From Spongilla lacustris (Eukaryota; Porifera; Demospongiae; Spongillida; Spongillidae): 64,000 nucleotides of DNA. The stretch lies in contig OX442422.1 in assembly GCA_949361645.1 (NCBI GenBank), positions 6,791,534 through 6,855,533 of the forward strand, given 5' to 3'. How positions within the stretch are numbered: position 1 is the stretch's first letter; each line of letters starts with the position of its first letter. This document shows, piece by piece, positions 20,021 through 61,135 of the stretch. A program made the translations under genes and the position numbers. Below the pieces are notes generated by a model that worked only from the letters and a program-made list of their open reading frames with translations, made no database searches and was not told the origin of the DNA.

Positions 20021-20038
20021 TTTTGCAGAACGAACGAG

Positions 20039-35660: not shown

Positions 35661-35682
35661 CAACACATAAAACTCACCTGCA

Positions 35683-37725: not shown

Positions 37726-37760
<35 letters not shown>

Positions 37761-37763
<3 letters not shown>

Positions 37764-38582
37764 GAAAGTTTACGAGAAAAGGGACCTAGCGTGTATTATA
37801 AAAAAGTATAATAAAAATGCATTACGTTTGATTTGCTATAACTTCCGAACAGTTAACGCTATCAACTTCCTATTTTCAACACTTCATACTGCACCATTTC
37901 TCTATGGTAAAATACATTTTGGAGTCTTGCACTTGCTCCGTGTCAGTATTGCAACGTTCGATACCCCACTGGGTTCAAACCCGCCATAACTTTCGGTAGG
38001 AGTAATCAATTCGCTTCAAATTCAGTTTGTAGGTAGAGAGGTCCTATACCTATCGATTTGTTCTGTTCGTTAATTTTTATGCCATCCATTACGGAGATAC
38101 AGTTGAACAAACTACGTGCCCATTTTCGCGCTCGATTCGCGCCAATGATTTGGGCAAATTGCGTTCCGCTCAATGTATGGGGAGGCGGGGATTATAACAT
38201 TGGCGCTAATCAAGCGGGAAAATGTGCACGTAGTTTGTTCAACTGTATCTCCGTAACGGATGGCATAAAAATTAACGAACAGAACAAATCGATAGGTATA
38301 GGACCTCTCTACCTACAAACCGAATTTGAAGCGAATTGATTACTCGTACCGAAAGTTATGGCGGGTTTGAACCCAGTGGGGTATCGAACGTTGCAATACT
38401 GACATGGAGCAAGTGCAAGACTTCAAAATGTATTTTACCATAGAGAAATGGTGCAGTATGAAGTGTTGAAAATACAAAGTTGATAGCGTTAACTGTTCGG
38501 AAGTTATAGCAAATCAAACGTAATGCATTTTTATTTTACTTTTTTATAACACGCTAGGTCCCTTTTCTCGTAAACTTTCCCA
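37761..38582. mobile_element. 822-bp palindromic (foldback) element in a TA repeat
   Basis: The ends are TGGGAAAGTTTACGAGAAAA and its reverse complement, both embedded in (TA)n. The arms pair for about 385 bases, down to GCGCCAATG / CATTGGCGC near 38148/38198, leaving a loop of about 50 bases with scattered mismatches. Insertion in TA suggests a Tc1/mariner-type MITE. There is no coding capacity. Confidence 0.85.
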
Positions 38583-39864
38583 TATATATATATCTTCTAG
38601 GTACTTGAGTTCTGCAAATGGACTCACATCAAAGTGTTGCATGAGAACTACATTTAGCACTAAAATAAATAGGTCATACTTGGTCTTGTACATTTATGTT
38701 GCATTACTCAATTACTGTACGCATTAAAATGAAAATTGTGACTGATTGATTGGTTGATTGATTGATTACACAAACTATATGCATCTATTAGCAGTGGTAT
38801 ATACCGCCGGCCCCGCAGGTAAATTTGCAGTGGTGGTCTTGGGTTCTGCAGTGACGATACTCTGCGCGGAAGTGTGGAATGAGTTAAAATGTGTTGCGGG
38901 TACAAGTGAGTTACAGGATGTTTCCGAAGTGCTGTAACACAGAAAAAGGGATATAAGATCTCAAAAGGATGTAAAGTTATACATTTTTAACACTGGGTCC
39001 ATGAAATTGGATTTCATGTAAGTTGAGGCCCATTTTAATTTTTTTAATTAGTTGGTACACTGCAAACTTTCCGGTATTTGTTTGTGGTCATTTATAATTT
39101 AAGCTATAGTCATGGATTTGTACATAAGATTCATCAATTATTAAATTGCAATTTTTCAAATACAAAAAATGAATGGTACTACGTAACCAAAACAAAAGTT
39201 GGAAGCAACTTTAGATGGTTAATGGCTCATATTTAATGGGTAGCCCTGGTATTTTTTTGTGTTTGGTGCATGTGTACGTTTGGTTACTGTTATCCCTGTA
39301 TTGGCTTGAATTAATAATATGTACTAAATTTGATAATATGTACAAGTAGGACTGCTCATAATTGGACCCATTGAAAGTTCAAGCCCACAGTAACTGGTTA
39401 TAACGGCACCAGTATTTTATCCTGATAATTAACACCATCATTCTTTTTGGCTAGTGTATTCATGATCATTGGATAAGGTCCCTGATTTCAGTGTCATATC
39501 ACTTTCAGTTGATATTTCAGAGATGTCAAAATGAGCTCCGATGTACTTTAAAGAAGCAATCTGTGGTGATACAGCACTTCTTATTTAGCTATTCCCAAAA
39601 AACAATCAACTGACGAATACATATCAATTTATTTAGTTTAGAGTAGATTATAGGTTAATAAACTACAGTCCATATCTGCCTAAATGAAATTTTGAACATC
39701 TAGTGTGCTTGGTTCACAGCGTTCATAAAGGTTGCTCTCTCCGATGTTTAAGCATCTTATACAACAATACAATGTCTTGCTCATGTGTTGCTTTTGGCAA
39801 ATAAACTTTACACAACACGAGTAAATAATTGTGCATTGCATGCGAGTCATCATAGATAGATGGG
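38583..39864. other. No gene recognised
   Basis: AT-rich; no convincing frame or repeat. Confidence 0.5.
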
Positions 39865-40079
39865 ATCTATTCCTCCCAGCCACAGAACTTCACTGAGATT
39901 CCACACATAATCGTTAGACACTAGTAAAACCGGCAGTGACGGATTTAAGTTTAACCTGCTTGTGGTTGTTCTCAACACTACAAGGGGGTTAAACGATAAA
40001 TTCACCCCTGCCAGTTTTACTAGTGTCTAACGATTATGTGTGGAATCTCAGTGAAGTTCTTTGGCTGGGAGGAATAGAT
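39865..40079. mobile_element. 215-bp hairpin element, probable MITE
   Basis: Inverted arms of about 75 bases (ATCTATTCCTCCCAGCCACA...AGTAAAACCGGCAG) around a 65-base loop. Confidence 0.8.
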
Positions 40080-40857
40080 TAATGCTACTCCCGTGTAAAT
40101 CCGCCGCGAAACAGAAAAGATGCGAAAATGGTAATGGGCATAGGGGGATACCCCCCTATGCCCCTTTTTAAATCGCTCATACCTTTTTTCTTTTACGTCC
40201 GATTTTTATTTTGAAAGCAGATTCATAATTCTTTCTTTAAGCTTTACAACATTGGACGATGGTGTCTTCCACTTTTTTTCTTGCCCCCCCCCCGATTGAG
40301 CCTAATATATATTTCCTGCTTCTAACCTAATGCAATCTCAGATAGACCACTAAATAGCCCCGTAGCATATGACTGTGCCACTCATATTTGGGTGGTTGGT
40401 TGAGTTAAGTAAACTCATCTTCAATTTGCTCTTTACCTTTCTTGATGACCTGCAATTTTTCTAGGATAGTGTATGCTAAAAGAACCTGCCTTTAATTAAG
40501 TAGCTGCTGTTCTGGATATGAACACGATTTGCATGGGTTTTCAATTGACTGAAGTGAGTAGAGCAAAGGGACCAAATGTGGAACACACCCCTATTAAGGA
40601 ACACTAAATCTCATTAAAAATTTAATCAAAGTTATGGGTTTGCAATAATGGCTCATATGCTAATCAATGAATCTGATAGACCCACTAGTTGCTGGATAAA
40701 TATCCTCCACGAGCATTTGGCAAGCTAGGAGTGCAGCATTGTGCTCCTTTGCGACCTCCTGATTTCATTATAGCTTTCATGTGCTCTTAATGCAGCCTTT
40801 TCTTCTAGAGCTGCTTTTCTTTTTCTGCGTCGCTCTTCTTTCTCAGCTATCTCTCCT

Positions 40858-41950
40858 CTATGGCTTCATATCCTCAGCAGCCTTAAATTTATTGATCCAT
40901 TGTACTGAAGTCATGCACTGAGCTGAACCTTTCATATGCTTTAATTGAGTACTTGTAGTAGGGATAGCGTTGTCCTGTGGATCTAAGCTTTCTCCATCTG
41001 AATTATCAGTGGTACTTTCTGAACTTTGAGGAGAGGTCGGTTCAGCATGTTGCACCTGCTCAGGACGTACTGCACAGATCAGTGGAGTAGTACTGAATTG
41101 ACAATTTTTGGCGTCTTTATCTGTTGTCATTGCAGCAGCCTCGATATCAACCTGCCTCTTCACCTCTTGTTCCACAGCATCCTCAATAAAGCTTACAATG
41201 GTGTCTTCAGGAAGAGCATCTACCCCATGTAGTGGAGACAGGCCTGTCGTTTATTGGTCATAATTAGTCAACCAGAGGATAGACGTTTCATTTTTTAGCA
41301 AGTAGCACCTGCCCCCTCCCCAAAGCAAACCCCATGCAGTTGAGTGTTTATATAACAACCCATTCATGTGGTTGTTCCTTATTTGGTACCTTTCCCATAC
41401 ATTGAGGTATGTTTGCCGAAAGGTGAGTTTTCGGCACCAGGATTCATAAAACTTTTCCTATGGTTAGTATAGTTGTAATCTACGATAAATTTTCTATCCA
41501 ACAGTGTTTAGATTATCTCTCTAGCCTGCATAGTTTGTCTGCATCAGTCAAGGGAAGTTGGTTGTTCCTTAATAGGTTCCTTTGGTCTACAAACCTTTTC
41601 TAAGACACTTTGTTATAGTAAATGGGCCCACTTACTTGTATTCCAATTTTCCTCCTTTCCTTTTTTTTTCTTTTTTGAAATCCTTTTTGAGGACTTTTGC
41701 ACCTAATTTATAGGCTTTTGGGTTAGCATGTTTCTGGTCATATTCTTGCGTCTGCTTTTTTTGTGCCAATTGACTATTTGCTTTAGCTTGTTTCAGACCT
41801 TTATTCTTTCATCAATAATTCGTTCAAAGTAAGAAGCATTTGGGTTAAAATGTTCCTCATCTTTCTCTGCTATGTTTACATGCAACTGGAAATCTATTGG
41901 TAGGCCAGGTGCATGGGATGCTAGCCTGGAGATGGTGTTCTGAGCCTCAT
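40858..41950 (-). pseudogene. Retroelement/integrase polyprotein C-terminal remnant
   Basis: On the - strand 41640-41950 reads LPIDFQLHVNIAEKDEEHF, YFERIIDER, then SQLAQKKQTQEYDQKHANP and YKLGAKVLKKDFKKEKKKG. This is the stretch after the integrase core, with the Q-K-x-Y-D-x-K-H helix and V-G-x-x-VL strand of Pol or Ginger-type integrases. Frames change within it. Further on, 40858-41245 continues as an uninterrupted frame ending in a stop, with ALPEDTIVSFIEDAVEQEV and a Ser/Thr/Glu-rich tail. Whether the two parts are one protein is uncertain. Confidence 0.5.
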
Positions 41951-42640
41951 TACCCCCCAACTGCCATAGGCATTATGAAGCACTTATGATCATTGGCTTG
42001 GTGCTTCCTGTACCGGCTGTGCCCTACACTCCTGCTTCCAACAAAGTGACAGAATTTAGTGGTGAGGTGATAGATACATCTATTGCTGCTATTCTGCCTA
42101 AGAACCAATTGGGAAGTAGGATGTCAAACCTGTTGTGGTAACACTGATTGGATCAAAATCTCTTACACAATTGAATTCAATGTGACACATAAATGATCAG
42201 GTGATTGGATTTGAAATCAAACATACATAATTATGCAATCAATCGTTAATAAGTTCTTCGAGCAGTGGCAGGGGATAAAAGGCTTCCAACCTTTAAAGCA
42301 AATATTTTAGTTCGTCAATCCATTGATGAACTAAAATGGCAATGATATCCTAAGGCAATTGCAACTACATGTTCTGTACCAATCTCTGTTGCTATTCAAT
42401 GTGATCATTTCCATGTGCCCAATTCATAACTAGCATACTTTACATGTATTGTACTTTTGAACAACACTATGAATGTATCAGATCCATATTTTTAAAGTTG
42501 CAACACTCAAGTTGATAATTGTGATAAAGAATAGAACAGTAACATTTACCATAACATGTCATCCTAGTGATGTTCAAATAGCCATAGGGCTTTTTGGAGG
42601 ATCTAAAGGGGAAAGCTTTCATTATGCACACTTAATTACT
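41951..42640. other. No gene recognised
   Basis: No supportable frame. Confidence 0.4.
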
Positions 42641-42830
42641 CAGACCATTATGTGAAGGTTCAAAATTACTCCTGACATGCCATCAGCAACAAGAGACTTT
42701 TGTTCGGCCCCTACACCCTCAGGCTTGCGTGGTATCTTTGTTACATGTGGCAAACCTGTTGCAGTGTACTCCCCATCAAAGCCCTGCCATGAACTCATAC
42801 ACTTTGGACCAACACAGAACACATACAATC
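42640..42830 (-). pseudogene. piggyBac-like transposase, middle fragment
   Basis: Reads MSSWQGF, then TGLPHVTKIPRKPEGVGAEQ and DGMSGVILNL. This is the core just after the first catalytic aspartate in the family that also left the fragment at 3434-4204. The usual DES before MSxW is missing (PKC here). It is truncated on both sides. Confidence 0.55.
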
Positions 42831-42950
42831 CTACTCATATAATATGCTTTTTTACAGATGACCCATTCATTAGATTAGAGTAGTGTTTCTCGCCTCGACC
42901 TTGTTGTTATAGATGCCACAAATGCACACCTGCCAAGGTAACCATAGTGC

Positions 42951-45900
42951 TAGAATAATTGTGGTATGTCGGCCTATTGGTTAAAGTCAATTACGGTCCA
43001 TGGAGTGACATTGCTCAGGTAGAAGAGGAAATGACGTTGTACCAGACATGTGATTCACACAATGCAAGGACAACAGTGCTAATCCTCTGCATATTTATAT
43101 CTAAGTATCAACAGATAGGCCTACCTAATATGTGCAAAGAGATGTTTCCGATCGTATCTCCCGGTCCACGGGACATGTCCCAACACTCGACTATAAGTTC
43201 ATTCAATTGATCGTGTGCTACAATGTGCAGCACACTTGTTGAGGTGGAGCACGAAGCCACACCCACACCCATGACCTCATAGCCCGCTCTGAGGTATGGC
43301 CCACATGCTCCACCTCCATCCACCAGACATGGGGGAGCCTGGGCTAGCTGTATAATGTTACCAGGGCAAAGGAAATCTCTGCCCTGGAAAACCCATCGAG
43401 TGGATGAGGTAGTCCCTTTTACAGTGCAGCTACTAAAAAGACCGTTCGGTGCACACGGCTGTTAGGCTCCATAGAAACATTGGACATTTACTACGCGCGC
43501 GCCGCGTTATAAGAAATTTTGAAATGCCCCTTGACAACAGATCTAGTTACCGACAAGTCTTCAACCTATTGCAGCCTTTTGAAGAGAAAACCAAGTTTTT
43601 AAAAGTTCGAAACATACACACTATCTCAGTCCATAGCGATATCCTGTTTATTTTTATTTTTGCCAATGCATTCCAGAGTTTTTTTTTGCTAATACCCTAA
43701 ACACCAATCATCGTGTATTATGAAACGTGCAGTTTTGTCGAATAAGACGACTACGGATTTAAAAAGTACAATCAGTTTGGATACTTATGGCAGGATTCAT
43801 GTGTTCAGAGGGTTTTTTTTCTTCGTATTATATTATCATACATTATCGTAACACCAGGTACATGTAGCGCGGTTGATACGAACGTGCTGCTACGATACAT
43901 ATGTTAATTCTGTTTGCGTCGCTTTATCTGTGGCCTTGCAGCAACGTTTGATGGAGCAGTATGTAGCAGTACGTCCTTTCAAGGTCATTGAAGTAATGGT
44001 GGATGCTTTCAACTCCCTGCTCACCCAAAAATCCAAAGCCCATGTGCCATTGTTTCAGATAAGGTACAACATGGACTTCTAAGAAGTGCATTTTTGGTAG
44101 TACTGAATGAATAGCAAAGTTTTCGCGATAAAAGGCCATAAATGCTCCAATGCTTTCTTCTACAAAAACAAATATGAAAGTGTACTGTTTCACTCACAAT
44201 ACTGACTAATAATTTGCACTAACCTAATTGCTGTATTTCTTCATCAGAGACAGTGTTCTTGTCATATATGTTATGGCACTTCTGAAATAAGTTAAAAAGT
44301 GACAAGTACTTCTGGCTAATAGCTCTTGCTTCACTACACAAGGGTGTGTAGTTTTCTGCAGTTGATACGATACAATTGCAAAGTATTGCAATGTTGTTGG
44401 CCTAGAATGTATAATCATGTTTGATCTATTGTGCACAAAATGCAGTTGTTACCTTTAATGCTCTGTGAACATGACTACCCACAAATGTTCCACTGTAGTA
44501 TGCCTGCCTCTTTACATGAAAAGAGGCTAGAGCATTGTCTAGAGCCTTCACAAAGGGTCCATCTTCCTTTTTGAAATCGTCTTTCAAAGAAGCTTCAAGC
44601 TTGTCAATCTCTTCACACTAGGTTTATAACATACAATGTATCACAATCAAACATTCTGCATCAATAACTAAAATCTTACTACAACATTAAGCCTATCTTT
44701 ATTCTCTTCAATTTCAAGCTTTAGAAGCTCTACAGCTGCATCCATTTCTTCTTCACCATATGACAGCATGTATATCACATGCTGTTCAAAACATTGGATA
44801 GTATCCTTCAGTGATACCATCTCATCCATTAGTTCCCGTTTGGAAACTAATGCTGCACAGTAGTTATCATAGGAGATAGCAGACACCCCATCCAATACAA
44901 CAGCTCTGCAATCCAGCTTATGACAATCCTCTTCCAGCAGAACAAACAATCTCAAAAAAATACCCATTGTTATATGAAGTCCAGGGGGACATACCTATAA
45001 ACATTATGATAGTGTATCACCATGCAAGTATGTACTCTTGAATTGGCGTACCTGAGACAGAGGTATGGAAAGAAAAAGTGGTTGCCGAATAGCGTTATTG
45101 AATCTCTTAGCTGTCTTCAAATTTCCCCCAGCATTCATAAATCTGCTGTGATCATAGCACAGTGATGCGATTGTGCGTAGTTGTACTCTACATTCAACAT
45201 TGGGTGGTAAAATGATCTCTTCATGTGTCATAAAACACCACAAGCAAAAATGACGGCCTGTGTATTAAAATGTATTCAACATACCAATACATTGAATAAA
45301 ACATTTTCCTACCACTTGCACCAGATATTCCTTCTATCTCACTAAGAAATTTATAATCACCACACAGAAAAAACCGAATTTTCTTCCCTCTGAAATGATT
45401 AATATCATGTGAAAAACAAAGTGTATAATATTCCCAATAGTCTCACCTCCAACCTGTTGCTTCAATGTCTGCTATTTGCTGAGCGTATCGTTCTAAACAG
45501 ATCTTCAAATTCACAAAAGAGTCCTGACCAGAATATATTGCTACAACACATGTATTCTCGACAGAATTAGGTGTAGCAACATTCAGAAGCTGAAAACAAA
45601 ACTTAAAGGTATTGCCACCTTTATCTCCACCTATTTTGACCCAGAGTTCATCAGCAGGTATTACACCATTGTGCCAAGTTAGACGATCCACCCTAAGTTG
45701 AGGCAGCGTGGTATGGTATTACAATGCAGCAATGTTCATTTTACTAACCCTGTGACATCATTCTGTTCTAATAAAGTCTGTATTCTAGCCCACAAGTGAG
45801 GTATATATGCTAAAGGGGCTGGTTTAATTTCATCAGCTCCACCCTTGTGTTTGAATAATAATGGTATCATCTCAGCACTCATGTTTGTTCCAATAAGAGT

Positions 45901-46826
45901 ATTTGTTCTTTGTCGCATTTTCTGCTCACTAGCTAGTTGAACACCCCATGCTTTTAACCATCTATAAAAAATCAAAGGATGTTATTCAACTCAATACACA
46001 TACATGTAATCATGTACCTTCTCATCACTCTAATCTTGTTCCAAGGAAAAATAAGGTTAGCCTTCATTGCCAGTGAGTCCTCTGTTGAAACAATGACCTG
46101 GCATCCACTCTGTGATGTCAGTTCATCTAAAATCCTGGAGCGCTCCTCAACAGTAGAAGATCTTATTTCTTGTGATAATTGAGCAGTGGCATCACATCCA
46201 CTGACATATCTTCGTACTTTGGCTAAGTATTCAACTCTTCTTTTCACAGTTTTGGTAGATGCAACACTTGACTGAACAGATGGGGTGGTCAGCTTTGTAA
46301 GTACAAGTGGCTATGTACATATAAGCGGAGAATTAGGAATTAAATGTATTTGTATGTGTAGAACAAAATACACAAAATTTACATACCTTTCCTGTGGATT
46401 TAACAACCATTACATCCTTATCGGGGCTCATAGAAAGGGATTGTCTAACCAAATTTGCTTGCAAAGCAGACTCTATACTTGAAAGTGGTGCACTTTCTGG
46501 CTGGAGAAGAATTCCTTCAATAACACTTTCAATGGGCAAATAACTACAGCTGCTGTTCAAATGGTGTTCATAATGACCAAGCTCCTGCACAATTTGGACA
46601 AATCACACTTATTTTTCTTACAACATCCTGTACACAGTTGCTTGCTGGCCTTACCATAGACACACTTAGAGGTTGCTCATAACAGCAAGGACATGAAAGT
46701 GTTACAGAGGTTTTCAACCATGAGCAAACACACTGGAAGCATACAACTGCACCACAGTTAATTAGTTCTATTGGACTATTAAGAAGCATAAGGCATAATG
46801 GACATTCTGCATTCACTGATAGCTGA
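42951..46826. repeat. Tandem array unit 1 (3876 bp, most complete)
   Basis: Starts at TAGAATAATTGTGGTATGTC, the sequence that also begins the other units. Contains an Ig-like exon (-), a non-coding middle (43450-43920) and the RING-transposase gene (-). Confidence 0.95.
43125..43432 (-). CDS. Ig-like receptor domain exon, array unit 1
   Basis: Intact 308-nt exon with acceptor TTTTTAG and donor G|GTAGGC, phase 2 to phase 1. Ordered strands: CTVKGTTSSTRWVFQG, FLCPGNIIQLAQAPPC, GGGACGPYL, ASCSTSTSVLHIV, LIVECWDMS and ISLHILG. Six cysteines and the TRWxF strand fit an Ig-superfamily-like extracellular fold (inference). This is the best preserved copy of a domain also at 1315-1497 (+), 35683-36026 (-), 60590-60800 (-) and 63222-63407 (+). 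An identical copy is in unit 2 (47001-47308), and only its 5' half survives in units 3 and 4. Confidence 0.6.
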
Positions 46827-46849
46827 TAGAATAATTGTGGTATGTCGGC
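43924..46849 (-). CDS. RING/RAG1-N-like plus DDE transposase-like protein, ten exons
   Basis: Exons (-): 46387-46849, 46018-46310, 45749-45961, 45447-45692, 45313-45389, 45052-45257, 44680-44994, 44453-44617, 44224-44401 and 43924-44159 (TAA). All nine junctions have GT-AG ends and matching phases; together they give about 795 residues. Exon 1 has a RING-like motif CPLC...NCGAVVCFQC...CPCC, then ICPNC / QELGHYEHHLNSSC. This is the same order as the RING and following zinc finger of RAG1, but Ala stands where the RING histidine should be. Later exons carry KIGGDKGGNTFKF, CGDYKFLSEIEGISGASG, CLWC, CPPGLHI, KMHFLEVH and GEQGVESIHHYFN. These are plausible D, D and E catalytic positions and the CxxC/HxxxxH zinc site known in RAG1/Transib and CACTA-type transposases. 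One extra base near 46601 splits exon 1 and is present in every array copy. The 5' exon with the start codon was not found. Confidence 0.65.
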
Positions 46850-48567
46850 CTATTGGTTAAAGTCAATTACGGTCCATGGAGTGACATTGCTCAGGTAGAA
46901 GAGGAAATGACGTTGTACCAGACATGTGATTCACACAATGCAAGGACAACAGTGCTAATCCTCTGCATATTTATATCTAAGTATCAACAGATAGGCCTAC
47001 CTAATATGTGCAAAGAGATGTTTCCGATCGTATCTCCCGGTCCACGGGACATGTCCCAACACTCGACTATAAGTTCATTCAATTGATCGTGTGCTACAAT
47101 GTGCAGCACACTTGTTGAGGTGGAGCACGAAGCCACACCCACACCCATGACCTCATAGCCCGCTCTGAGGTATGGCCCACATGCTCCACCTCCATCCACC
47201 AGACATGGGGGAGCCTGGGCTAGCTGTATAATGTTACCAGGGCAAAGGAAATCTCTGCCCTGGAAAACCCATCGAGTGGATGAGGTAGTCCCTTTTACAG
47301 TGCAGCTACTAAAAAGACCGTTCGGTGCACACGGCTGTTAGGCTCCATAGAAACATTGGACATTTACTACGCGCGCGCCGCGTTATAAGAAATTTTGAAA
47401 TGCCCCTTGACAACAGATCTAGTTACCGACAAGTCTTCAACCTATTGCAGCCTTTTGAAGAGAAAACCAAGTTTTTAAAAGTTCGAAACATACACACTAT
47501 CTCAGTCCATAGCGATATCCTGTTTATTTTTATTTTTGCCAATGCATTCCAGAGTTTTTTTTTGCTAATACCCTAAACACCAATCATCGTGTATTATGAA
47601 ACGTGCAGTTTTGTCGAATAAGACGACTACGGATTTAAAAAGTACAATCAGTTTGGACACTTATGGCAGGATTCATGTGTTCAGAGGGTTTTTTTTCTTC
47701 GTATTATATTATCATACATTATCGTAACACCAGGTACATGTAGCGCGGTTGATACGAACGTGCTGCTACGATACATATGTTAATTCTGTTTGCGTCGCTT
47801 TATCTGTGGCCTTGCAGCAACGTTTGATGGAGCAGTATGTAGAGTGTGTTTGATGGAGCAGTATGTAGAGTGTGAGATGTCAGTTCATCTAAAATCCTGG
47901 AGCGCTCCTCAACAGTAGAAGATCTTATTTCTTGTGATAATTGAGCAGTGGCATCACATCCACTGACATATCTTCGTACTTTGGCTAAGTATTCAACTCT
48001 TCTTTTCACAGTTTTGGTAGATGCAACACTTGACTGAACAGATGGGGTGGTCAGCTTTGTAAGTACAAGTGGCTATGTACATATAAGCGGAGAATTAGGA
48101 ATTAAATGTATTTGTATGTGTAGAACAAAATACACAAAATTTACATACCTTTCCTGTGGATTTAACAACCATTACATCCTTATCGGGGCTCATAGAAAGG
48201 GATCGTCTAACCAAATTTGCTTGCAAAGCAGACTCTATACTTGAAAGTGGTGCACTTTCTGGCTGGAGAAGAATTCCTTCAATAACACTTTCAATGGGCA
48301 AATAACTACAGCTGCTGTTCAAATGGTGTTCATAATGACCAAGCTCCTGCACAATTTGGACAAATCACACTTATTTTTCTTACAACATCCTGTACACAGT
48401 TGCTTGCTGGCCTTTGCTCATAACAGCAAGGACATGAAAGTGTTACAGAGGTTTTCAACCATGAGCAAACACACTGGAAGCATACAACTGCACCACAGTT
48501 AATTAGTTCTATTGGACTATTAAGAAGCATAAGGCATAATGGACATTCTGCATTCACTGATAGCTGA
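46827..48567. repeat. Tandem array unit 2 (1741 bp, internally deleted)
   Basis: Repeats unit 1, including the whole Ig-like exon (47001-47308). It lacks about 2.1 kb of the RING-transposase gene. At the deletion joint a 26-base segment (TTTGATGGAGCAGTATGTAG core) is duplicated. It also lacks 21 bases (seven codons) in the RING exon. Confidence 0.95.
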
Positions 48568-48590
48568 TAGAATAATTGTGGTATGTCGGC
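47877..48590 (-). pseudogene. Deleted RING-transposase copy, unit 2
   Basis: Keeps exon 1 (48149-48590, without 21 bases after CCYEQ) and part of exon 2 (47877-48072, up to ILDELTS). All catalytic exons are gone. Confidence 0.85.
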
Positions 48591-51500
48591 CTATTGGTTA
48601 AAGTCAATTACGGTCCATGGAGTGACATTGCTTAGGTAGAAGAGGAAATGACGTTGTACCAGACATGTGATTCACACAATGCAAGGACAACAGTGCTAAT
48701 CCTCTGCATATTTATATCTAAGTATCAACAGATAGGCCTACCTAATATGTGCAAAGAGATGTTTCCGATCGTATCTCCCGGTCCACGGGACATGTCCCAA
48801 CACTCGACTATAAGTTCATTCCTCTCCCTTTGCGTCTGAGCCTTTCCTCGTTTCTGGAAGGGGAGGCAAGGGATGAACAAGGATTGAAATCAGTAAGTTG
48901 ATACTTACTCAATTCTTTTTCTGTGTGGGCTCTCAGTAGGAGCATCTCGACCTTTGTCTGGGTGCTAAGTTGTTCTTGCTCCCAATTCGACTTTAGGTCA
49001 GACTCCATGTACCCAGTGTGGTCCCAGAGGTGGTGTTGGTGAGTCTGATGGTGTAGCTGGTGTGTGCCCCAATAACCGCTGGGGGGAGATCGGCTTTTGG
49101 GCTCGATCTCTCTGCAAGAGGGACCTCCTTCCTCTCTGGAGGGGTCTCTGCAGAATGAGAAACTGAGTTTGTGTTATGAGCAAAAGGTTTCTTACCATCA
49201 ACTACGACCACTTCGTCTTTAGCAGAACCCAGGAGAGGGTTCAACCGAAGTGACGTCGCTGGGCTCGACTTTCCCACATGGGTACTCGTTTCGACACCAC
49301 ACCCTATGACCAAACCTTTTTTCGGCTTTTCCAAGGTTGTCTTGGAGATAGGGTGAGGGGGATGGAGGGGTTTCCCACACGAGGTAGTGCACATAGCCTG
49401 CTGCTTGTATGTATGGACTGCAGACACCAGTGGATGATGGAGTGCAGGGGGAAGACTTGCAATTTTAGGTTGTAACAGTGAGTGTAAATAGGATGTTAAT
49501 TAATTTGCCTAGATACAGATTCTAGGTGTCCGTAAATAGGGCATTATCCGGCACCGAATCTGAAGGAGGCATCTGCAATATATAAATGAAACTTCTGACG
49601 TAAGAAGAGGGGAACGCGATACATGGAACACGATTAAAGCCATTGACAAATTGATCCAAACATGTGAAGACACGTGTGTTGCGCACACAGTGATATTTAT
49701 AGAGCTTTGATCATTCCGTGCGTATGTTCCGTATTTTAGTCCTTGGTTCCGTTCCGTGGAATAGATCTAACCCCTCTTATCTCTGAGAGAACATTTTCCT
49801 CATTAATCAAAGACATCTGTCATAATGTGTGGAGATCATTGCAACAGTGCTCAACAAAAATGTCTTTAAAATTTCCAGAAGTCAAAAAAGTGTTCTGCAA
49901 GCCCACAAGGATAAATATCCTAATGTAATTGTCGTTAATTGCCATTTATGTCTAAAATGTTGTCAGATCATTAAACAAGCAATGATCTCTCTCCATGCAT
50001 TTCCACCATCAGCAATGGATAGTATTCGTGCTCCGCCTGCACGTAAAAACCATTCAATTATCATAAACATATCAGCTGTAAAATAATTAGTGCTGATTGA
50101 TGAACATAGGTGCGCATGTTTAGCCTATCTGTTTAACTTAGACTAGATGGTATCAGCTTCCTATTCAGATTTTATACTCAAATTGTGAACAAATCTTCTG
50201 CCTAAAGCTGTAGTCTCTTGAGAAGGACCTGGGGTCCATCCGTCTCCTCTGCTGAGGCTCCTCCCAGTCTCTCCCTGTTTCCCCCTGTACTCTCTTGACA
50301 AGATGTTAAACAGTAAAACTGAACTAATCCCTCCTATGTTTTTTTTCTGCCGTATCAGTAGGAAGTTCATCTTGTTACCTTCATCTGCAAACCCATGTGG
50401 CTACAATAAAAATCTAATGTTTTTGTGTTTCATTTTGAAGCAAGTAATATAGAAATTTGTTTGGTTGTTTATTGCCCACATTAACATTTTAGATGTGATG
50501 CCATAAAATTATTGATTATGCTGAATATATAATTGAAATAGCAGGGATGATATATAAAAGCAGTGTTGCCTTGGATACTAGGCTGGCTAGGAAGTCTCCT
50601 CCGCATGTTGAGATGGCTCTTAGGGCTGTGTGGCTACATAAAGGAAAACATGCTGTAAATCCAACGGGACAAAGGCATGTCATTAGGAGAAGGTGGGATA
50701 GCACACGTGGAGAGAGGAAATGGGATGACATTGTTGTGAAGCTGGATTGGTGAGGCAAAGATGCAGATATGCATGGGTTGAAATATACCTGATGCCTTCT
50801 TATTGAGTTCGTGCTGCCAAATCATCCACAGCAACACTACCAGTGGTACCACCATCACCACTAAGACTGCCGGCATCCATTCTGAAGAGAGAATTGCTCC
50901 ACCTCCATCCACCAGACATGGGGGAGCCTGGGCTAGCTGTATAATATTACCAGGGCAAAGGAAATCTCTGCCCTGGAAAACCCATCGAGTGGATGAGGTA
51001 GTCCCTTTTACAGTGCAGCTACTAAAAAGACCGTTCGGTGCACACGGCTGTTAGGCTCCATAGAAACATTGGACATTTACTACGCGCGCGCCGCGTTATA
51101 AGAAATTTTGAAATGCCCCTTGACAACAGATCTAGTTACCGACAAGTCTTCAACCTATTGCAGCCTTTTGAAGAGAAAACCAAGTTTTTAAAAGTTCGAA
51201 ACATACACACTATCTCAGTCCATAGCGATATCCTGTTTATTTTTATTTTTGCCAATGCATTCCAGAGTTTTTTTTTGCTAATACCCTAAACACCAATCAT
51301 CGTGTATTATGAAACGTGCAGTTTTGTCGAATAAGACGACTACGGATTTAAAAAGTACAATCAGTTTGGATACTTATGGCAGGATTCATGTGTTCAGAGG
51401 GTTTTTTTTCTTCGTATTATATTATCATACATTATCGTAACACCAGGTACATGTAGCGCGGTTGATACGAACGTGCTGCTACGATACATATGTTAATTCT

Positions 51501-52273
51501 GTTTGCGTCGCTTTATCTGTGGCCTTGCAGCAACGTTTGATGGAGCAGTATGTAGAGTGTGTTTGATGGAGCAGTATGTAGAGTGTGAGATGTCAGTTCA
51601 TCTAAAATCCTGGAGCGCTCCTCAACAGTAGAAGATCTTGTGATAATTGAGCAGTGGCATCACATCCACTGACATATCTTCGTACTTTGGCTAAGTATTC
51701 AACTCTTCTTTTCACAGTTTTGGTAGATGCAACACTTGACTGAACAGATGGGGTGGTCAGCTTTGTAAGTACAAGTGGCTATGTACATATAAGCGGAGAA
51801 TTAGGAATTAAATGTATTTGTATGTGTAGAACAAAATACACAAAATTTACATACCTTTCCTGTGGATTTAACAACCATTACATCCTTATCGGGGCTCATA
51901 GAAAGGGATCGTCTAACCAAATTTGCTTGCAAAGCAGACTCTATACTTGAAAGTGGTGCACTTTCTGGCTGGAGAAGAATTCCTTCAATAACACTTTCAA
52001 TGGGCAAATAACTACAGCTGCTGTTCAAATGGTGTTCATAATGACCAAGCTCCTGCACAATTTGGACAAATCACACTTATTTTTCTTACAACATCCTGTA
52101 CACAGTTGCTTGCTGGCCTTTGCTCATAACAGCAAGGACATGAAAGTGTTACAGAGGTTTTCAACCATGAGCAAACACACTGGAAGCATACAACTGCACC
52201 ACAGTTAATTAGTTCTATTGGACTATTAAGAAGCATAAGGCATAATGGACATTCTGCATTCACTGATAGCTGA
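48568..52273. repeat. Tandem array unit 3 (about 3.7 kb)
   Basis: Carries the same deletion joint as unit 2 plus a further 7-base loss in exon 2 (GATCTTGTGAT instead of GATCTTATTTCTTGTGAT). The 3' half of the Ig-like exon is replaced by 48822-50897, which encodes a transmembrane exon and tail exons. Confidence 0.95.
48993..51021 (-). CDS. Ig-half/transmembrane protein, unit 3
   Basis: Exon 50789-51021 starts with the first half of the Ig-like domain (through CLVDGGGA) and passes in frame into WMPAVLVVMVVPLVVLLWMI, a clear membrane segment, then a basic stop-transfer HELNKK and donor GTATAT. Candidate tail exons: 50161-50293 (QGETGRDWEEPQQRRRMDP), 49196-49455 and 48993-49147. The last two join in phase 1 at VVVDG|ETPPERKEV and end GTWSLT-stop. 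The first part of 49196-49455 is related to the Ig-like exon at 1315 but is read in a shifted frame. A single-pass surface protein is likely, but the exon order between the membrane segment and the tail is inferred. Confidence 0.45.
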
Positions 52274-52296
52274 TAGAATAATTGTGGTATGTCGGC
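51590..52296 (-). pseudogene. Deleted RING-transposase copy, unit 3
   Basis: Same content as in unit 2 (exon 1 at 51855-52296, part of exon 2 up to about 51778), with the additional 7-base deletion. Confidence 0.85.
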
Positions 52297-55200
52297 CTAT
52301 TGGTTAAAGTCAATTACGGTCCATAGAGTGACATTGCTCAGGTAGAAGAGGAAATGACGTTGTACCAGACATGTGATTCACACAATGCAAGATCAACAGA
52401 TAGGCCTACCTAATATGTGCAAAGAGATGTTTCCGATCGTATCTCCCGGTCCACGGGACATGTCCCAACACTCGACTATAAGTTCATTCCTCTCCCTTTG
52501 CGTCTGAGCCTTTCCTCGTCTCTGGAAGGGGAGGCAAGGGATGAACAAGGATTGAAATCAGTAAGTTGATACTTACTCAATTCTTTTTCTGTGTGGGCTC
52601 TCAGTAGGAGCATCTCGACCTTTGTCTGGGTGCTAAGTTGTTCTTGCTCCCAATTCGACTTTAGGTCAGACTCCATGTACCCAGTGTGGTCCCAGAGGTG
52701 GTGTTGGTGAGTCTGATGGTGTAGCTGGTGTGTGCCCCAATAACCGCTGGGGGGAGATCGGCTTTTGGGCTCGATCTCTCTGCAAGAGGGACCTCCTTCC
52801 TCTCTGGAGGGGTCTCTGCAGAATGAGAAACTGAGTTTGTGTTATGAGCAAAAGGTTTCTTACCATCAACTACGACCACTTCGTCTTTAGCAGAACCCAG
52901 GAGAGGGTTCAACCGAAGTGACGTCGCTGGGCTCGACTTTCCCACATGGGTACTCGTTTCGACACCACACCCTATGACCAAACCTTTTTTCGGCTTTTCC
53001 AAGGTTGTCTTGGAGATAGGGTGAGGGGGATGGAGGGGTTTCCCACACGAGGTAGTGCACATAGCCTGCTGCTTGTATGTATGGACTGCAGACACCAGTG
53101 GATGATGGAGTGCAGGGGGAAGACTTGCAATTTTAGGTTGTAACAGTGAGTGTAAATAGGATGTTAATTAATTTGCCTAGATACAGATTCTAGGTGTCCG
53201 TAAATAGGGCATTATCCGGCACCGAATCTGAAGGAGGCATCTGCAATATATAAATGAAACTTCTGACGTAAGAAGAGGGGAACGCGATACATGGAACACG
53301 ATTAAAGCCATTGACAAATTGATCCAAACATGTGAAGACACGTGTGTTGCGCACACAGTGATATTTATAGAGCTTTGATCATTCCGTGCGTATGTTCCGT
53401 ATTTTAGTCCTTGGTTCCGTTCCGTGGAATAGATCTAACCCCTCTTATCTCTGAGAGAACATTTTCCTCATTAATCAAAGACATCTGTCATAATGTGTGG
53501 AGATCATTGCAACAGTGCTCAACAAAAATGTCTTTAAAATTTCCAGAAGTCAAAAAAGTGTTCTGCAAGCCCACAAGGATAAATATCCTAATGTAATTGT
53601 CGTTAATTGCCATTTATGTCTAAAATGTTGTCAGATCATTAAACAAGCAATGATCTCTCTCCATGCATTTCCACCATCAGCAATGGATAGTATTCGTGCT
53701 CCGCCTGCACGTAAAAACCATTCAATTATCATAAACATATCAGCTGTAAAATAATTAGTGCTGATTGATGAACATAGGTGCGCATGTTTAGCCTATCTGT
53801 TTAACTTAGACTAGATGGTATCAGCTTCCTATTCAGATTTTATACTCAAATTGTGAACAAATCTTCTGCCTAAAGCTGTAGTCTCTTGAGAAGGACCTGG
53901 GGTCCATCCGTCTCCTCTGCTGAGGCTCCTCCCAGTCTCTCCCTGTTTCCCCCTGTACTCTCTTGACAAGATGTTAAACAGTAAAACTGAACTAATCCCT
54001 CCTATGTTTTTTTTCTGCCGTATCAGTAGGAAGTTCATCTTGTTACCTTCATCTGCAAACCCATGTGGCTACAATAAAAATCTAATGTTTTTGTGTTTCA
54101 TTTTGAAGCAAGTAATATAGAAATTTGTTTGGTTGTTTATTGCCCACATTAACATTTTAGATGTGATGCCATAAAATTATTGATTATGCTGAATATATAA
54201 TTGAAATAGCAGGGATGATATATAAAAGCAGTGTTGCCTTGGATACTAGGCTGGCTAGGAAGTCTCCTCCGCATGTTGAGATGGCTCTTAGGGCTGTGTG
54301 GCTACATAAAGGAAAACATGCTGTAAATCCAACGGGACAAAGGCATGTCATTAGGAGAAGGTGGGATAGCACACGTGGAGAGAGGAAATGGGATGACATT
54401 GTTGTGAAGCTGGATTGGTGAGGCAAAGATGCAGATATGCATGGGTTGAAATATACCTGATGCCTTCTTATTGAGTTCGTGCTGCCAAATCATCCACAGC
54501 AACACTACCAGTGGTACCACCATCACCACTAAGACTGCCGGCATCCATTCTGAAGAGAGAATTGCTCCACCTCCATCCACCAGACATGGGGGAGCCTGGG
54601 CTAGCTGTATAATATTACCAGGGCAAAGGAAATCTCTGCCCTGGAAAACCCATCGAGTGGATGAGGTAGTCCCTTTTACAGTGCAGCTACTAAAAAGACC
54701 GTTCGGTGCACACGGCTGTTAGGCTCCATAGAAACATTGGACATTTACTACGCGCGCGCCGCGTTATAAGAAATTTTGAAATGCCCCTTGACAACAGATC
54801 TAGTTACCGACAAGTCTTCAACCTATTGCAGCCTTTTGAAGAGAAAACCAAGTTTTTAAAAGTTCGAAACATACACACTATCTCAGTCCATAGCGATATC
54901 CTGTTTATTTTTATTTTTGCCAATGCATTCCAGAGTTTTTTTTTGCTAATACCCTAAACACCAATCATCGTGTATTATGAAACGTGCAGTTTTGTCGAAT
55001 AAGACGACTACGGATTTAAAAAGTACAATCAGTTTGGATACTTATGGCAGGATTCATGTGTTCAGAGGGTTTTTTTTCTTCGTATTATATTATCATACAT
55101 TATCGTAACACCAGGTACATGTAGCGCGGTTGATACGAACGTGCTGCTACGATACATATGTTAATTCTGTTTGCGTCGCTTTATCTGTGGCCTTGCAGCA

Positions 55201-55941
55201 ACGTTTGATGGAGCAGTATGTAGAGTGTGTTTGATGGAGCAGTATGTAGAGTGTGAGATGTCAGTTCATCTAAAATCCTGGAGCGCTCCTCAACAGTAGA
55301 AGATCTTGTGATAATTGAGCAGTGGCATCACATCCACTGACATATCTTCGTACTTTGGCTAAGTATTCAACTCTTCTTTTCACAGTTTTGGTAGATGCAA
55401 CACTTGACTGAACAGATGGGGTGGTCAGCTTTGTAAGTACAAGTGGCTATGTACATATAAGCGGAGAATTAGGAATTAAATGTATTTGTATGTGTAGAAC
55501 AAAATACACAAAATTTACATACCTTTCCTGTGGATTTAACAACCATTACATCCTTATCGGGGCTCATAGAAAGGGATCGTCTAACCAAATTTGCTTGCAA
55601 AGCAGACTCTATACTTGAAAGTGGTGCACTTTCTGGCTGGAGAAGAATTCCTTCAATAACACTTTCAATGGGCAAATAACTACAGCTGCTGTTCAAATGG
55701 TGTTCATAATGACCAAGCTCCTGCACAATTTGGACAAATCACACTTATTTTTCTTACAACATCCTGTACACAGTTGCTTGCTGGCCTTTGCTCATAACAG
55801 CAAGGACATGAAAGTGTTACAGAGGTTTTCAACCATGAGCAAACACACTGGAAGCATACAACTGCACCACAGTTAATTAGTTCTATTGGACTATTAAGAA
55901 GCATAAGGCATAATGGACATTCTGCATTCACTGATAGCTGA
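52274..55941. repeat. Tandem array unit 4 (3668 bp)
   Basis: Almost identical to unit 3. It differs by a small deletion after CACAATGCAAGA (52389) and a few substitutions. Confidence 0.95.
52661..54689 (-). CDS. Ig-half/transmembrane protein, unit 4
   Basis: Copy of the unit 3 gene: membrane exon 54457-54689, tail exons about 53829-53961, 52864-53123 and 52661-52815. No coding differences were noticed by eye in these exons. Confidence 0.45.
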
Positions 55942-55964
55942 TAGAATAATTGTGGTATGTCGGC
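55258..55964 (-). pseudogene. Deleted RING-transposase copy, unit 4
   Basis: Identical in layout to the unit 3 copy (exon 1 at 55523-55964). Confidence 0.85.
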
Positions 55965-57631
55965 CTATTGGTTAAAGTCAATTACGGTCCATAGAGTGAC
56001 ATTGCTCAGGTAGAAGAGGAAATGACGTTGTACCAGACATGTGATTCACACAATGCAAGATCAACAGATAGGCCTACCTAATATGTGCAAAGAGATGTTT
56101 CCGATCGTATCTCCCGGTCCACGGGACATGTCCCAACACTCGACTATAAGTTCATTCCTCTCCCTTTGCGTCTGAGCCTTTCCTCGTCTCTGGAAGGGGA
56201 GGCAAGGGATGAACAAGGATTGAAATCAGTAAGTTGATACTTACTCAATTCTTTTTCTGTGTGGGCTCTCAGTAGGAGCATCTCGACCTTTGTCTGGGTG
56301 CTAAGTTGTTCTTGCTCCCAATTCGACTTTAGGTCAGACTCCATGTACCCAGTGTGGTCCCAGAGGTGGTGTTGGTGAGTCTGATGGTGTAGCTGGTGTG
56401 TGCCCCAATAACCGCTGGGGGGAGATCGGCTTTTGGGCTCGATCTCTCTGCAAGAGGGACCTCCTTCCTCTCTGGAGGGGTCTCTGCAGAATGAGAAACT
56501 GAGTTTGTGTTATGAGCAAAAGGTTTCTTACCATCAACTACGACCACTTCGTCTTTAGCAGAACCCAGGAGAGGGTTCAACCGAAGTGACGTCGCTGGGC
56601 TCGACTTTCCCACATGGGTACTCGTTTCGACACCACACCCTATGACCAAACCTTTTTTCGGCTTTTCCAAGGTTGTCTTGGAGATAGGGTGAGGGGGATG
56701 GAGGGGTTTCCCACACGAGGTAGTGCACATAGCCTGCTGCTTGTATGTATGGACTGCAGACACCAGTGGATGATGGAGTGCAGGGGGAAGACTTGCAATT
56801 TTAGGTTGTAACAGTGAGTGTAAATAGGATGTTAATTAATTTGCCTAGATACAGATTCTAGGTGTCCGTAAATAGGGCATTATCCGGCACCGAATCTGAA
56901 GGAGGCATCTGCAATATATAAATGAAACTTCTGACGTAAGAAGAGGGGAACGCGATACATGGAACACGATTAAAGCCATTGACAAATTGATCCAAACATG
57001 TGAAGACACGTGTGTTGCGCACACAGTGATATTTATAGAGCTTTGATCATTCCGTGCGTATGTTCCGTATTTTAGTCCTTGGTTCCGTTCCGTGGAATAG
57101 ATCTAACCCCTCTTATCTCTGAGAGAACATTTTCCTCATTAATCAAAGACATCTGTCATAATGTGTGGAGATCATTGCAACAGTGCTCAACAAAAATGTC
57201 TTTAAAATTTCCAGAAGTCAAAAAAGTGTTCTGCAAGCCCACAAGGATAAATATCCTAATGTAATTGTCGTTAATTGCCATTTATGTCTAAAATGTTGTC
57301 AGATCATTAAACAAGCAATGATCTCTCTCCATGCATTTCCACCATCAGCAATGGATAGTATTCGTGCTCCGCCTGCACGTAAAAACCATTCAATTATCAT
57401 AAACATATCAGCTGTAAAATAATTAGTGCTGATTGATGAACATAGGTGCGCATGTTTAGCCTATCTGTTTAACTTAGACTAGATGGTATCAGCTTCCTAT
57501 TCAGATTTTATACTCAAATTGTGAACAAATCTTCTGCCTAAAGCTGTAGTCTCTTGAGAAGGACCTGGGGTCCATCCGTCTCCTCTGTTGAGGCTCCTCC
57601 CAGTCTCTCCCTGTTTCCCCCTGTACTCTCT
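55942..57631. repeat. Tandem array unit 5 (truncated)
   Basis: Matches unit 4 essentially base for base up to CTGTACTCTCT, with one C/T difference noticed near 57588. It then diverges into unique sequence exactly at the 5' edge of the QGETGRDWEE tail exon. Confidence 0.95.
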
Positions 57632-57864
57632 CGTCTGTCAGTGGACATGTTTGGGGGGTGATGTTGTAGGTTCTGTGTGTCTTCCTTGTCAGTGGGCGAT
57701 CCATTGTGGGAAACACTGGAATCCCAGCTGTTCGACGTGCATATAAGCCAACCATTTATCACATTAATTTTGAGCTGAAGTTTGTTCTGGACTGTGATAC
57801 CCGACCTGTCAGTCATGTCCTTCAATGATCCTGGCAGCCTTCCTAGGTCCCTTGTCTCTGCCAA
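57501..57864 (-). CDS. Tail exon of the transmembrane protein family, longer version
   Basis: The tail exon seen in units 3-4 here continues upstream without a splice site: MDRPLTRKTHRTYNITPQ, then CPLTDE, then RVQGETGRDWEE. This may be the source locus of the array's tail exons, or a copy in which two exons were joined. Confidence 0.35.
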
Positions 57865-58822
57865 GATGACACATATACAGCTTGTTTATTTGTCCTTCTT
57901 GAAACTGTTACTATGGCGTTGGGTGCTGCAGGGCTCCAAACATCAATGGGACAGCAGTGCATAGCTATACTTGTTAACTTGACATGCAGCATTGAATTTA
58001 TTTTCTAAGTTCAGCTGTCTTCATACTACTACTTATCATAGTACGCTATCATTAGAGCACCTTTCACGCAGTTCTAATTTGTGTTCAAACAGGGTTCGAT
58101 GCATGTGATTGACGTAGAATGCTCCGATCCTTGTACTGGTTAACATTTGTGGCCTGGCTGATGTTTAGTATGAAAAGATCACCTTCAGGCTTGTTAAAAA
58201 AATAAGACTACAGTTCAGTCGACGTCGAGCTCGGGTCATATCTAGATCTGTGAGAAGCTATTGAATATGATTATGTATATGAATATGATTATAGTAAACT
58301 GGTTTTCCGATACATGTAGATGGATGCGGGCGGGGACCAGAAACTAAGATTGATTAGGTGTGGCCTAATACATGAAATTCATATCGCATAATTTCCGTAA
58401 TCCCTTCAAAATGATGTATAGAGCATGCTGATCAGAGGGTACATGTTGTGTCCATATGTATGGCACACACATGAAGGATTTAATAAATTATTACAGGTAC
58501 AAAATACAATCAGTTATGCAGCAAAGCCATGGCATGCGTTTTGTTTAATAAATTTGCTGTAGAATATATCAATACATACATATCGCATAATTTCCGTAAT
58601 CCCTTCAAAATGAAGTATAGAACATGTTGATCAGAGTGAAAATCAATGATACATACATGTTCTGTCCATATATATGGCACACACGAACAGAATGCATATC
58701 AGGATGAAGTTATTAAACGTACAAATTACAATCGTTTATGCAGCAATAGTTCCTTTATTAAGTGGCAATGATGCCATGTCTATTTTTCCCTCTTGATGCA
58801 CAGCAGAATGACATAGGCAAGG
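57865..58822. repeat. 198-bp imperfect direct duplication; no gene
   Basis: CATATCGCATAATTTCCGTA and about 100 following bases occur at 58379 and again at 58577. No gene was seen elsewhere in the interval. Confidence 0.6.
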
Positions 58823-58945
58823 CTAAATGATTGCAAATATGATGAGAGCCAGCACGTCATACCATAGCCATCCAACTTGCCACCCAAGACTCATAATCTG
58901 CTCAGTACCATTAACAGTGCAAGGGTTGTATGTGCGTGAAGAGAA
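58823..58945 (-). CDS. C-terminal membrane exon, possibly ABCG-type transporter
   Basis: Reads TYNPCTVNGTEQIMSLGWQ and LWYDVLALIIFAII-stop (TAG at 58823-58825). An NPC...NG...G(W)...LWYD followed by a terminal membrane helix resembles the last segment of ABCG half-transporters. No clean acceptor is visible upstream in this frame, and one base in a CCCC run may be off. A - strand segment 59279-59356 (GFVNNEVVGLMFSAQANFTV, donor GTAAGC) may be a preceding exon. Confidence 0.3.
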   Translation of the reverse strand, partial: FSSRTYNPCTVNGTEQIMSLGWQVGWLWYDVLALIIFAII

Positions 58946-59359
58946 GGGGAAAATTCAACTTGATAAGCCATACACTGTGCAAGTAATCAGTACGTAATTT
59001 AATCTTTAATCTCCACTGTATGCATAGGACCATTATATTTGAAAATGTACATGTATCATAAATAGAAATGCAGGTACATTTGACATCCATTCAAATGCAC
59101 TGTACATGCAAATACACTATGAGATGTATGCATCCTTAAGTTTGAACTGATGACCAAAGGTGCTACCAATACACAAGGCATAACAAAATCATATTTAGTT
59201 TGAAACCCACAAAAAACAAGAGCATCATAGGCCTCATCACACTAACACATACAGACACACATAGATAAGCTTACCATTTTTCAATGACTGTCCCATTAAC
59301 AGTAAAATTAGCTTGTGCACTAAACATCAAGCCAACGACTTCATTGTTCACAAAACCCT

Positions 59360-60585: not shown

Positions 60586-60589
60586 TCTG

Positions 60590-60800
60590 ATCAAATATAC
60601 ACAACTGACCTCCATGATGTACTTGCGATAATTGAATCATGCATGTTTGAGTTGGTGTATTGCACAGCCATCCGGTCACAGAGCTTGTGCCTGAGACTGC
60701 ATGTGCATGTGCACTGCACAGTAGTGCCAGGGCAGAGGGGCTTGGTGACACTGTGGTCACAGAAGAAGCTCTGAGCTTCTCCTGAAGTGGAGTATAGTAT
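60590..60800 (-). pseudogene. Ig-like receptor domain, N-terminal half
   Basis: Reads SFFCDHSVTKPLCPG and VQCTCT, and after a one-base frame change near 60700 SGTSSVTGWLC, then MIQLSQVHHGG. This is the C-x-C...W...I-x-L-S-Q half of the domain seen complete at 43125-43432. The second half was not found next to it. Confidence 0.45.
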
Positions 60801-60984
60801 CACGGCACAAAGGCCATGCAACTTTTCTTTGATTTATTAATGTTGTAACAGTAAAATAGTAAGGCTGTATGAGTTACCGTACATCAGCTTTGTGACTGCA
60901 ATGCCGGTATTGTTCTACCTTGGAGCCATTGTACGTCCACAGAAAGTAGTTAAGTTTGTGAATCCTTCGGTATATCACAATCAC

Positions 60985-61135
60985 AATACCCCATCAGAAC
61001 CCCAGCACCCTCTGAATACCCCAGCAGAACCCCCCATCATCACTCTCTGCATACCCATCATCACCCTGTGAATACCCCATCAGAACCCCCATCATCACCC
61101 TCTGAATACCCCATCCCCCATCATCACCCTCTGAA
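60985..61135. repeat. Imperfect tandem repeat (CATCATCACCCTCTGAATACCCC type)
   Basis: Four to five imperfect copies of a unit of about 31-35 bases. It leads into the open frame that follows. Confidence 0.75.

Follow-up and report, generated by a model that had tools for sequence, protein, structure and literature searches.

Chapaev transposons, described by Kapitonov and Jurka and placed in the CMC group, offer the nearest comparison for a gene of the sponge Spongilla lacustris that lies on the minus strand of a 64,000-nucleotide stretch of assembly GCA_949361645.1 (contig OX442422.1, positions 6,791,534 to 6,855,533). This whole stretch is called the window below, and positions are counted from its first letter. 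Published work attributes DUF1280 to Chapaev transposases, as part of the RNase H-like superfamily, and places RAG1 and DUF1280 together in clade II of the same study (PMC3985635); a 2015 paper gives two Chapaev subgroups a Chapa domain with a RING "similar to RAG1" after it (PMC4411706). The sponge family resembles Chapaev in its DUF1280 body, its CAC..GTG ends, its target duplications (3-4 bp in Chapaev, 4 bp here), its C(2)C and H(3-4)H motifs and its Chapa-then-RING order. It differs in host, in the loss of the RING histidine in the members seen and in consistently having one short-spaced and one long-spaced end; the window copy is in addition truncated.

Other systems share some of these features. 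Vertebrate RAG1 has a pre-RING zinc region, RING and finger in identical order, but its catalytic core is only distantly alike. The recombination signal sequences (RSSs) have 12 and 23 bp spacers that differ by 11 bp, a difference nearly reproduced here (11-12 bp between spacers of 5-6 and 17 bp), and one of each is paired in both cases. However, the spacers here are mostly 5-6 and 17 bp rather than 12 and 23, and the CACAGTG heptamer and ACAAAAACC nonamer are absent: only CAC is common, the ends being made of CACGGCTGTT and TGGA(C/A)A. Asymmetric bipartite ends are also described for Transib with 12/23 ends and for ProtoRAG (27/31), which prefers its own asymmetric ends (PMC8289069), and a 2021 review gives some Transib elements as the only known 12/23-asymmetric transposition beyond V(D)J recombination (PMC8355894). 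Transib and ProtoRAG differ from the present family in their 5-bp duplications (4 bp here) and in spacers of 12/23 or 27/31 instead of 5-6/17. N-RAG-TP of Aplysia is similar by description only, as RAG1 N-terminus-like sequence on a mobile element. Spacing within the two ends is likewise unequal in P elements.

The window gene and its Chapaev affinity

The minus strand between 43924 and 46849 contains CPLC, CFQC, CPCC, GGDKGG, CGDYKFL, CLWC, HFLEVH and GEQGVES, as an earlier note made from the letters of the window had reported. That note spliced these motifs over ten exons in phase. The phase holds, with ten GT-AG introns of 51-76 nt that all keep it; the exon count is eleven, the extra exon coming from a split in the zinc finger. 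The exons (77-315 nt each, 46822-43924) encode 764 residues in phase with no stop before the end:

46655..46822, minus strand: exon 1, RING (CPLC..CFQC..CPCC) with Ala at the RING His position (motif reading and Pfam zf-C3HC4_4)
46585..46654, minus strand: GT..AG stretch of 70 nt that holds VRPASNCVQDVVRKISVICPNC; open in the C20 relative, here out of frame with the next exon
46387..46584, minus strand: exon 2, second half of the finger (ELGHYEHHLNSSC) and linker
46018..46310, minus strand: exon 3, whose counterpart in relatives aligns weakly to the RAG1 region after the finger
45749..45961, minus strand: exon 4 (spliced model)
45447..45692, minus strand: exon 5, GGDKGG with the first presumed catalytic Asp (59 of 60 relatives); DUF1280 match
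45313..45389, minus strand: exon 6, CGDYKFL with the second presumed Asp (57 of 60 relatives; two gaps, one Ile)
45052..45257, minus strand: exon 7, CLWC zinc site (56 of 60 relatives; four gaps)
44680..44994, minus strand: exon 8 (spliced model)
44453..44617, minus strand: exon 9, FVGSHVH motif (spliced model)
44224..44401, minus strand: exon 10 (spliced model)
43924..44159, minus strand: exon 11, HFLEVH and GEQGVES (last Glu), then a frame-shifted tail after a 52-nt deletion

Two kinds of search had been proposed in the earlier note: a profile search of the joined exons and a search for full copies with defined ends. The first identifies the body as DUF1280 (Pfam, E=9.8e-16, residues 304-367). 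Because the joined protein also matches 23 proteins at E<=0.001 in a protein database search, the gene is not a chance assembly of open frames. The top match, P0001, carries an Ephydatia muelleri gene label, and its best local match reaches 90% identity over 32% of the query, as would suit a freshwater sponge host. With Pfam zf-C3HC4_4 the RING reaches 23.3 bits when the spliced protein is searched and 28.0 bits when the exon-1 frame is, both under the cut-off of 30.

Sixty relatives were chosen from 130 proteins for a profile (A2) used in searches and residue counts, and the 248.6 Mb genome was searched. At E<=0.001, DUF1280 is present in 58 of the 60 and Pfam RAG1_imp_bd, which appears to be the Chapa domain, in 17; RAG1_imp_bd also occurs at 22 places in the genome, the C20 and L015 loci included. 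P0009 has both RAG1_imp_bd and RING over the Pfam cut-offs, and P0011 and P0018 have RAG1_imp_bd over and RING under. The Chapa-then-RING order is seen in P0009 and in the L015 and C20 loci, and the window copy retains only the RING. Fuller relatives in this genome, such as L015, have matches to RAG1_imp_bd, RING/finger and the DUF1280 body inside CAC..GTG ends and 4-bp duplications. An additional profile, A1, found only three proteins in the protein database, and its 131 pattern matches in IMG/VR contained no relative. Gaps aside, the 60 relatives hardly vary at the two Asp, CxxC, HxxxxH and the first Glu of GEQG, a pattern suggestive of a DDE (Asp-Asp-Glu) body with an RNase H fold. Taken together, the window locus is best read as a decayed, non-autonomous remnant of a Chapaev-superfamily cut-and-paste DNA transposon, with a probability of roughly 0.93 that covers this identity and not the synapsis step discussed below.

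The decay is apparent from comparison with a relative at C20:1.84 Mb, 97.5-99% identical to the window copy in the common parts. First, the relative has RING, ICPNC and HYEHH in one open stretch, from which the window copy has lost 8 nt: the finger is split, and ICPNC and HYEHHLNSSC, which had been placed together in exon 1, fall in different frames. Taking out 46585-46654 (70 nt) preserves the phase at the cost of ICPNC. This GT..AG stretch is probably not an original intron, and a single step, the 8-nt deletion, could have turned an exon into exon-intron-exon. Second, the 52-nt deletion shifts the frame after LERTYC, so that the terminal residues YILLHQTLLQGHR are a frame-shifted tail. Third, the segment upstream of the RING, a RAG1_imp_bd match in the C20 relative, is missing: at 46823/46824 a tandem junction joins the 3′ flank straight to the RING exon and replaces the 5′ part. 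Having lost its 5′ end and an intact protein, the window copy on its own should neither yield a working transposase nor be mobilised. A further detail of 46585-46654 is that the 8-nt deletion leaves a good acceptor, TTGTGCAG/G, in phase with a pre-existing GTAAGG.

Bipartite ends and their pairing

The ends were revealed by comparing L021 with L022 (99% identity over 4.4 kb), both terminating in CACGGCTGTT; a first search for terminal inverted repeats that required a flanking duplication failed in nine of ten loci, and its only yield was four weak pairs, in L018. When 14 gene-bearing loci (L019 duplicates L018) were scanned for CACGGCTGTT, allowing one mismatch, seven distinct loci proved to be bracketed by a pair, six of them with a perfect 4-bp duplication. 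The proposed search for copies with defined ends thus gave seven bracketed, gene-bearing elements. Related elements terminate in CAC...GTG, and the 3′ end of the window copy lies at 43454. Each end is bipartite, with an outer CACGGCTGTT and an inner TGGA(C/A)A separated by 5-6 bp at one end and mostly 17 bp at the other. In all seven gene-bearing elements the short-spaced end is upstream of the transposase and the long-spaced end on the opposite side. When the 14 nt inside the short end were scored against the long end at offsets of 0-29, the best offset was 11 in six elements and 12 in L018; these elements had been found through the outer 10-mer alone. Mean identity was 0.60 at offset 11 and at most 0.37 at other offsets. 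Since the per-element null 95th percentile (0.64) is exceeded only by L015 and L021, single elements are weak evidence, and the strength lies in the agreement across elements.

The same ends are abundant genome-wide. CACGGCTGTT followed by TGGACA at a distance of 0-30 nt has 903 matches versus one for the reversed control, CACGGCTGTT with TGGAAAC has 137 versus none, and a spacer fixed at 17 with TGGA alone gives 395 versus four. Spacers and pairing were analysed in 200 of 1040 matches (100 per motif), and the counts that follow are among the matches listed. TGGACA ends (all on C1) have spacers of 5 (13 matches), 6 (42), 7 (1), 9 (2), 15 (1), 16 (3) and 17 bp (38); TGGAAAC ends have spacers of 5 (1), 6 (72), 17 (25), 21 (1) and 22 bp (1). 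With short defined as a spacer of at most 9 bp and a pair as consecutive listed ends facing inward within 12 kb, every inward pair joins one short and one long end: 23 of 23 for TGGACA and 22 of 22 for TGGAAAC. The long spacer measures 17 bp except in a single pair (22 bp), and the two end types differ by 11-12 bp, or by 16 bp in one pair. Within 12 kb the TGGACA list also has neighbours that face outward (two) or share a strand (two). Ten pairs were picked from the 23 for end variety and tested for duplications of 2-6 bp: nine have exactly 4 bp, and 5 bp fits none. Most short/long pairs are 1.4-4 kb apart, versus 4.2-6 kb for gene-bearing elements; the shorter ones are probably abundant non-autonomous derivatives moved by this Chapaev family.

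We observe the asymmetry for the listed ends, and from it infer a preference in synapsis and, further, common descent with the 12/23 rule. By analogy with RAG and its 12RSS/23RSS, the synaptic complex may prefer one short and one long end, a step to which we give about even odds. In this scheme, the simplest cut-and-paste mechanism, an RNase-H-like body with the CxxC/HxxxxH zinc site would use the Asp of GGDKGG, the Asp of GDYKF and the second Glu of GEQGVES to cut 5′ of CAC and insert with a 4-bp stagger. The outer block would serve cleavage and the inner block would be contacted by the RAG1-like DNA-binding region, and an offset of 11 bp, one helical turn, could let a short and a long end fit into one complex; the RING region would probably act in dimerisation or regulation. 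A bolder version, which we consider rather unlikely, is that RAG1-headed Chapaev transposases synapse only a short (5-6 bp) with a long (17 bp) end under a RAG2-independent "6/17 rule", so that the 12/23 rule of V(D)J recombination would continue an asymmetry present from the base of animals, before RAG2 joined.

Several points tell against this reading of the ends. Equal pairing could occur outside the 200 matches analysed. The 45 mixed pairs (45 of 45) amount to far fewer than 45 independent events, because the pairs are copies of few lineages, with nine distinct spacer combinations in 12 elements. Neither L018 nor one of the ten further pairs has a target duplication, the latter at any length from 2 to 6. 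The strongest competing explanation, with a probability just short of even, is that the asymmetry is real and passive: inherited ends that differ by an insertion, with no synapsis rule. It concerns a single step of the Chapaev explanation, with which its odds overlap, and would fit if a few founder elements, each already bearing a short and a long end, gave rise to all the pairs; one family's long end does resemble its short end plus 11 bp (TGCGGC versus TGCGGCCATACATTTTG). On the other hand, the difference holds at 11-12 bp over nine spacer combinations whose sequences have diverged, the 45 pairs include none with two short or two long ends, and ProtoRAG is known to prefer asymmetric ends.

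The consistent pairing of short with long ends in this Chapaev family is the new part of these findings, and it lies in the wider family rather than in the window copy. No report of short/long bipartite end asymmetry for Chapaev was found in the literature searched, which did not cover Repbase; the available part of PMC4079192 contains neither "spacer" nor "asymmetr", and no description of the asymmetry was found in that of PMC4411706. For the origin of the 12/23 rule, the Chapaev lineage with RAG1 N-terminal domains is an abundant outgroup in which to test asymmetry, the window locus itself being no more than a damaged member. Among the rarer ends are G000:C5:2581156 (22-bp spacer) and C12:5667819 (21-bp spacer); the former pairs with a normal short end and seemingly consists of a 17-bp spacer with a 5-bp internal duplication.

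Likeness to RAG1

Searched against the PDB, the 60-relative profile ranks RAG1 first: RAG1 accounts for all 13 distinct sequences with E<=1e-11, and the top match, 6oem (E=1.3e-14, residues 198-385), covers the pre-RING zinc region, RING and finger. TRAF6 (5e-9) scores best among the chains other than RAG1. Against chains 6dbi and 3jbw the match extends past the finger with low confidence. This ranking above other RING proteins in the PDB, together with the presence of RAG1_imp_bd and/or RING with DUF1280 in relatives, bears out the view of a mobile element in which a DDE-transposase-like body carries a RAG1-type N-terminus.

Likeness in the core is confined to weak collinear stretches. The part from YGLSGA to CxxC faces RAG1 710-740, and ungapped extension of these weak stretches would set the GDY Asp opposite RAG1 D708. 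The second Glu of GEQGgES falls, also in a weak stretch, opposite RAG1 residue 962 (Q in 6oem, E in 9jpu), which we read as the catalytic E962; D708 and E962 are catalytic residues of RAG1. Because of this alignment, the second Glu of GEQGVES is a more likely catalytic candidate than the first.

The RING histidine is replaced by Ala in the window, as had been noted, and by Ser in L015. The substitution is not special to this copy. In the corresponding column of the 60 rows there are 17 His, 15 other residues and 28 gaps (a few rows look misaligned), and the seven E. muelleri rows that carry a residue at this position all lack His, one of them, P0003, appearing misaligned. The loss is thus general among the sponge members seen. 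Because the histidine is gone, E3 activity in these members is doubtful.

Alternative readings of the locus

The identification as a Chapaev remnant has to be set against several findings that tell the other way. The C20 copy is itself interrupted, with about 4.9 kb between exon 2 and the remainder and a change of frame in the upstream exon, and a search for its left end did not find one. No copy, the seven bracketed elements included, is demonstrated by a full gene model with both ends and an intact frame. The collinear core stretches are individually non-significant, and a body-only profile (A3, built from 25 relatives) matched no RAG1 chain in the PDB, only six weak coiled-coil or unrelated matches. 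The RNase H fold and the Asp/Asp/Glu triad are themselves proposed from conserved residues.

Even so, the alternatives fare poorly. A domesticated host gene, with splicing and frame kept, could account for the in-phase introns, the open frame of 764 residues and the coding stretches at three other genome loci that are 86-100% identical to the window, the lower values spanning introns. But two of the three loci are explained by the larger duplicated segment described below, and two frame-disturbing deletions relative to C20, the missing N-terminal domain and the tandem junction at the RING exon are hard to reconcile with a maintained gene; we regard domestication as very unlikely. The earlier note had proposed a new fusion of a RAG1-type N-terminus with a different, unrelated transposase, a reading suggested by the RING/finger order and the DDE-like motifs in one gene. 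Proteins named from a hemichordate, echinoderms, lancelets, Hydra and E. muelleri combine DUF1280 with RAG1_imp_bd and/or RING, and DUF1280 has been grouped with RAG1 in print. Since DUF1280 is Chapaev (PMC3985635) and Chapa plus RING has been described for that superfamily (PMC4411706), the architecture is already known and is not a new fusion, a proposal left with hardly any probability. A Transib or RAG-like (RAGL) transposon would explain the RAG1-like N-terminus and is scarcely credible, the duplications being 4 bp and not 5 bp in nine of ten pairs, and the genome having no Pfam RAG1 core or RAG2 (PF03089) match, a negative that is uninformative since control genomes are equally silent.

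Tandem array and other features of the window

The decayed Chapaev copy is part of a tandem array within a larger duplicated segment:

43454..43486, plus strand: element 3′ terminus, reading inward CACGGCTGTT, 17-bp spacer, TGGACA (long-type end); C20 homology starts exactly here
47330..47362, plus strand: the 3′ terminus again, tandem copy 2
51043..51075, plus strand: the 3′ terminus again, tandem copy 3
54711..54743, plus strand: the 3′ terminus again, tandem copy 4
42944..43970, plus strand: direct repeat R1, which spans the C-terminal tail, the 3′ end and roughly 510 bp of flanking DNA, 99.6% identical to 46819-47845
46819..47845, plus strand: direct repeat R2, which meets the RING exon at 46823/46824 (tandem junction)
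47873..48590, minus strand: second copy, internally deleted (RING exon, exon 2, part of exon 3)
37728..62274, no strand assigned: larger array-bearing segment, with a match of about 20.9 kb at C24 and 15.5 kb at C7

The C24 and C7 matches consist of long alignments of 99.6-100% with fewer array units. Two other interpretations were considered and discarded. R1 and R2 are not long terminal repeat-like sequences, as R carries a C-terminal coding tail and the element's 3′ end. The larger segment was also dropped as a giant transposon: C24 and C7 share at least 60 nt past 62274, so its ends are undefined. The part that the window shares with C24 and C7 begins at a foldback palindrome of about 0.84 kb (37750-38593, 93% identical to its own reverse complement and flanked by (AT)n). 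Its homology ends at 62274, within a minus-strand frame (62086-62523) that, judged by eye, resembles a Penelope-like reverse-transcriptase fragment.

Elsewhere in the window, an inverted repeat pair of about 285 bp (96.5%; 33348-33631 and 35384-35667) encloses about 1.75 kb; one arm is bordered by (TG)n, and the pair is possibly the ends of another element. On the plus strand, 20021-20785 is an open frame with three terminal C2H2 zinc fingers of Sp/KLF appearance (by eye), preceded by tandem repeats and probably a host gene.

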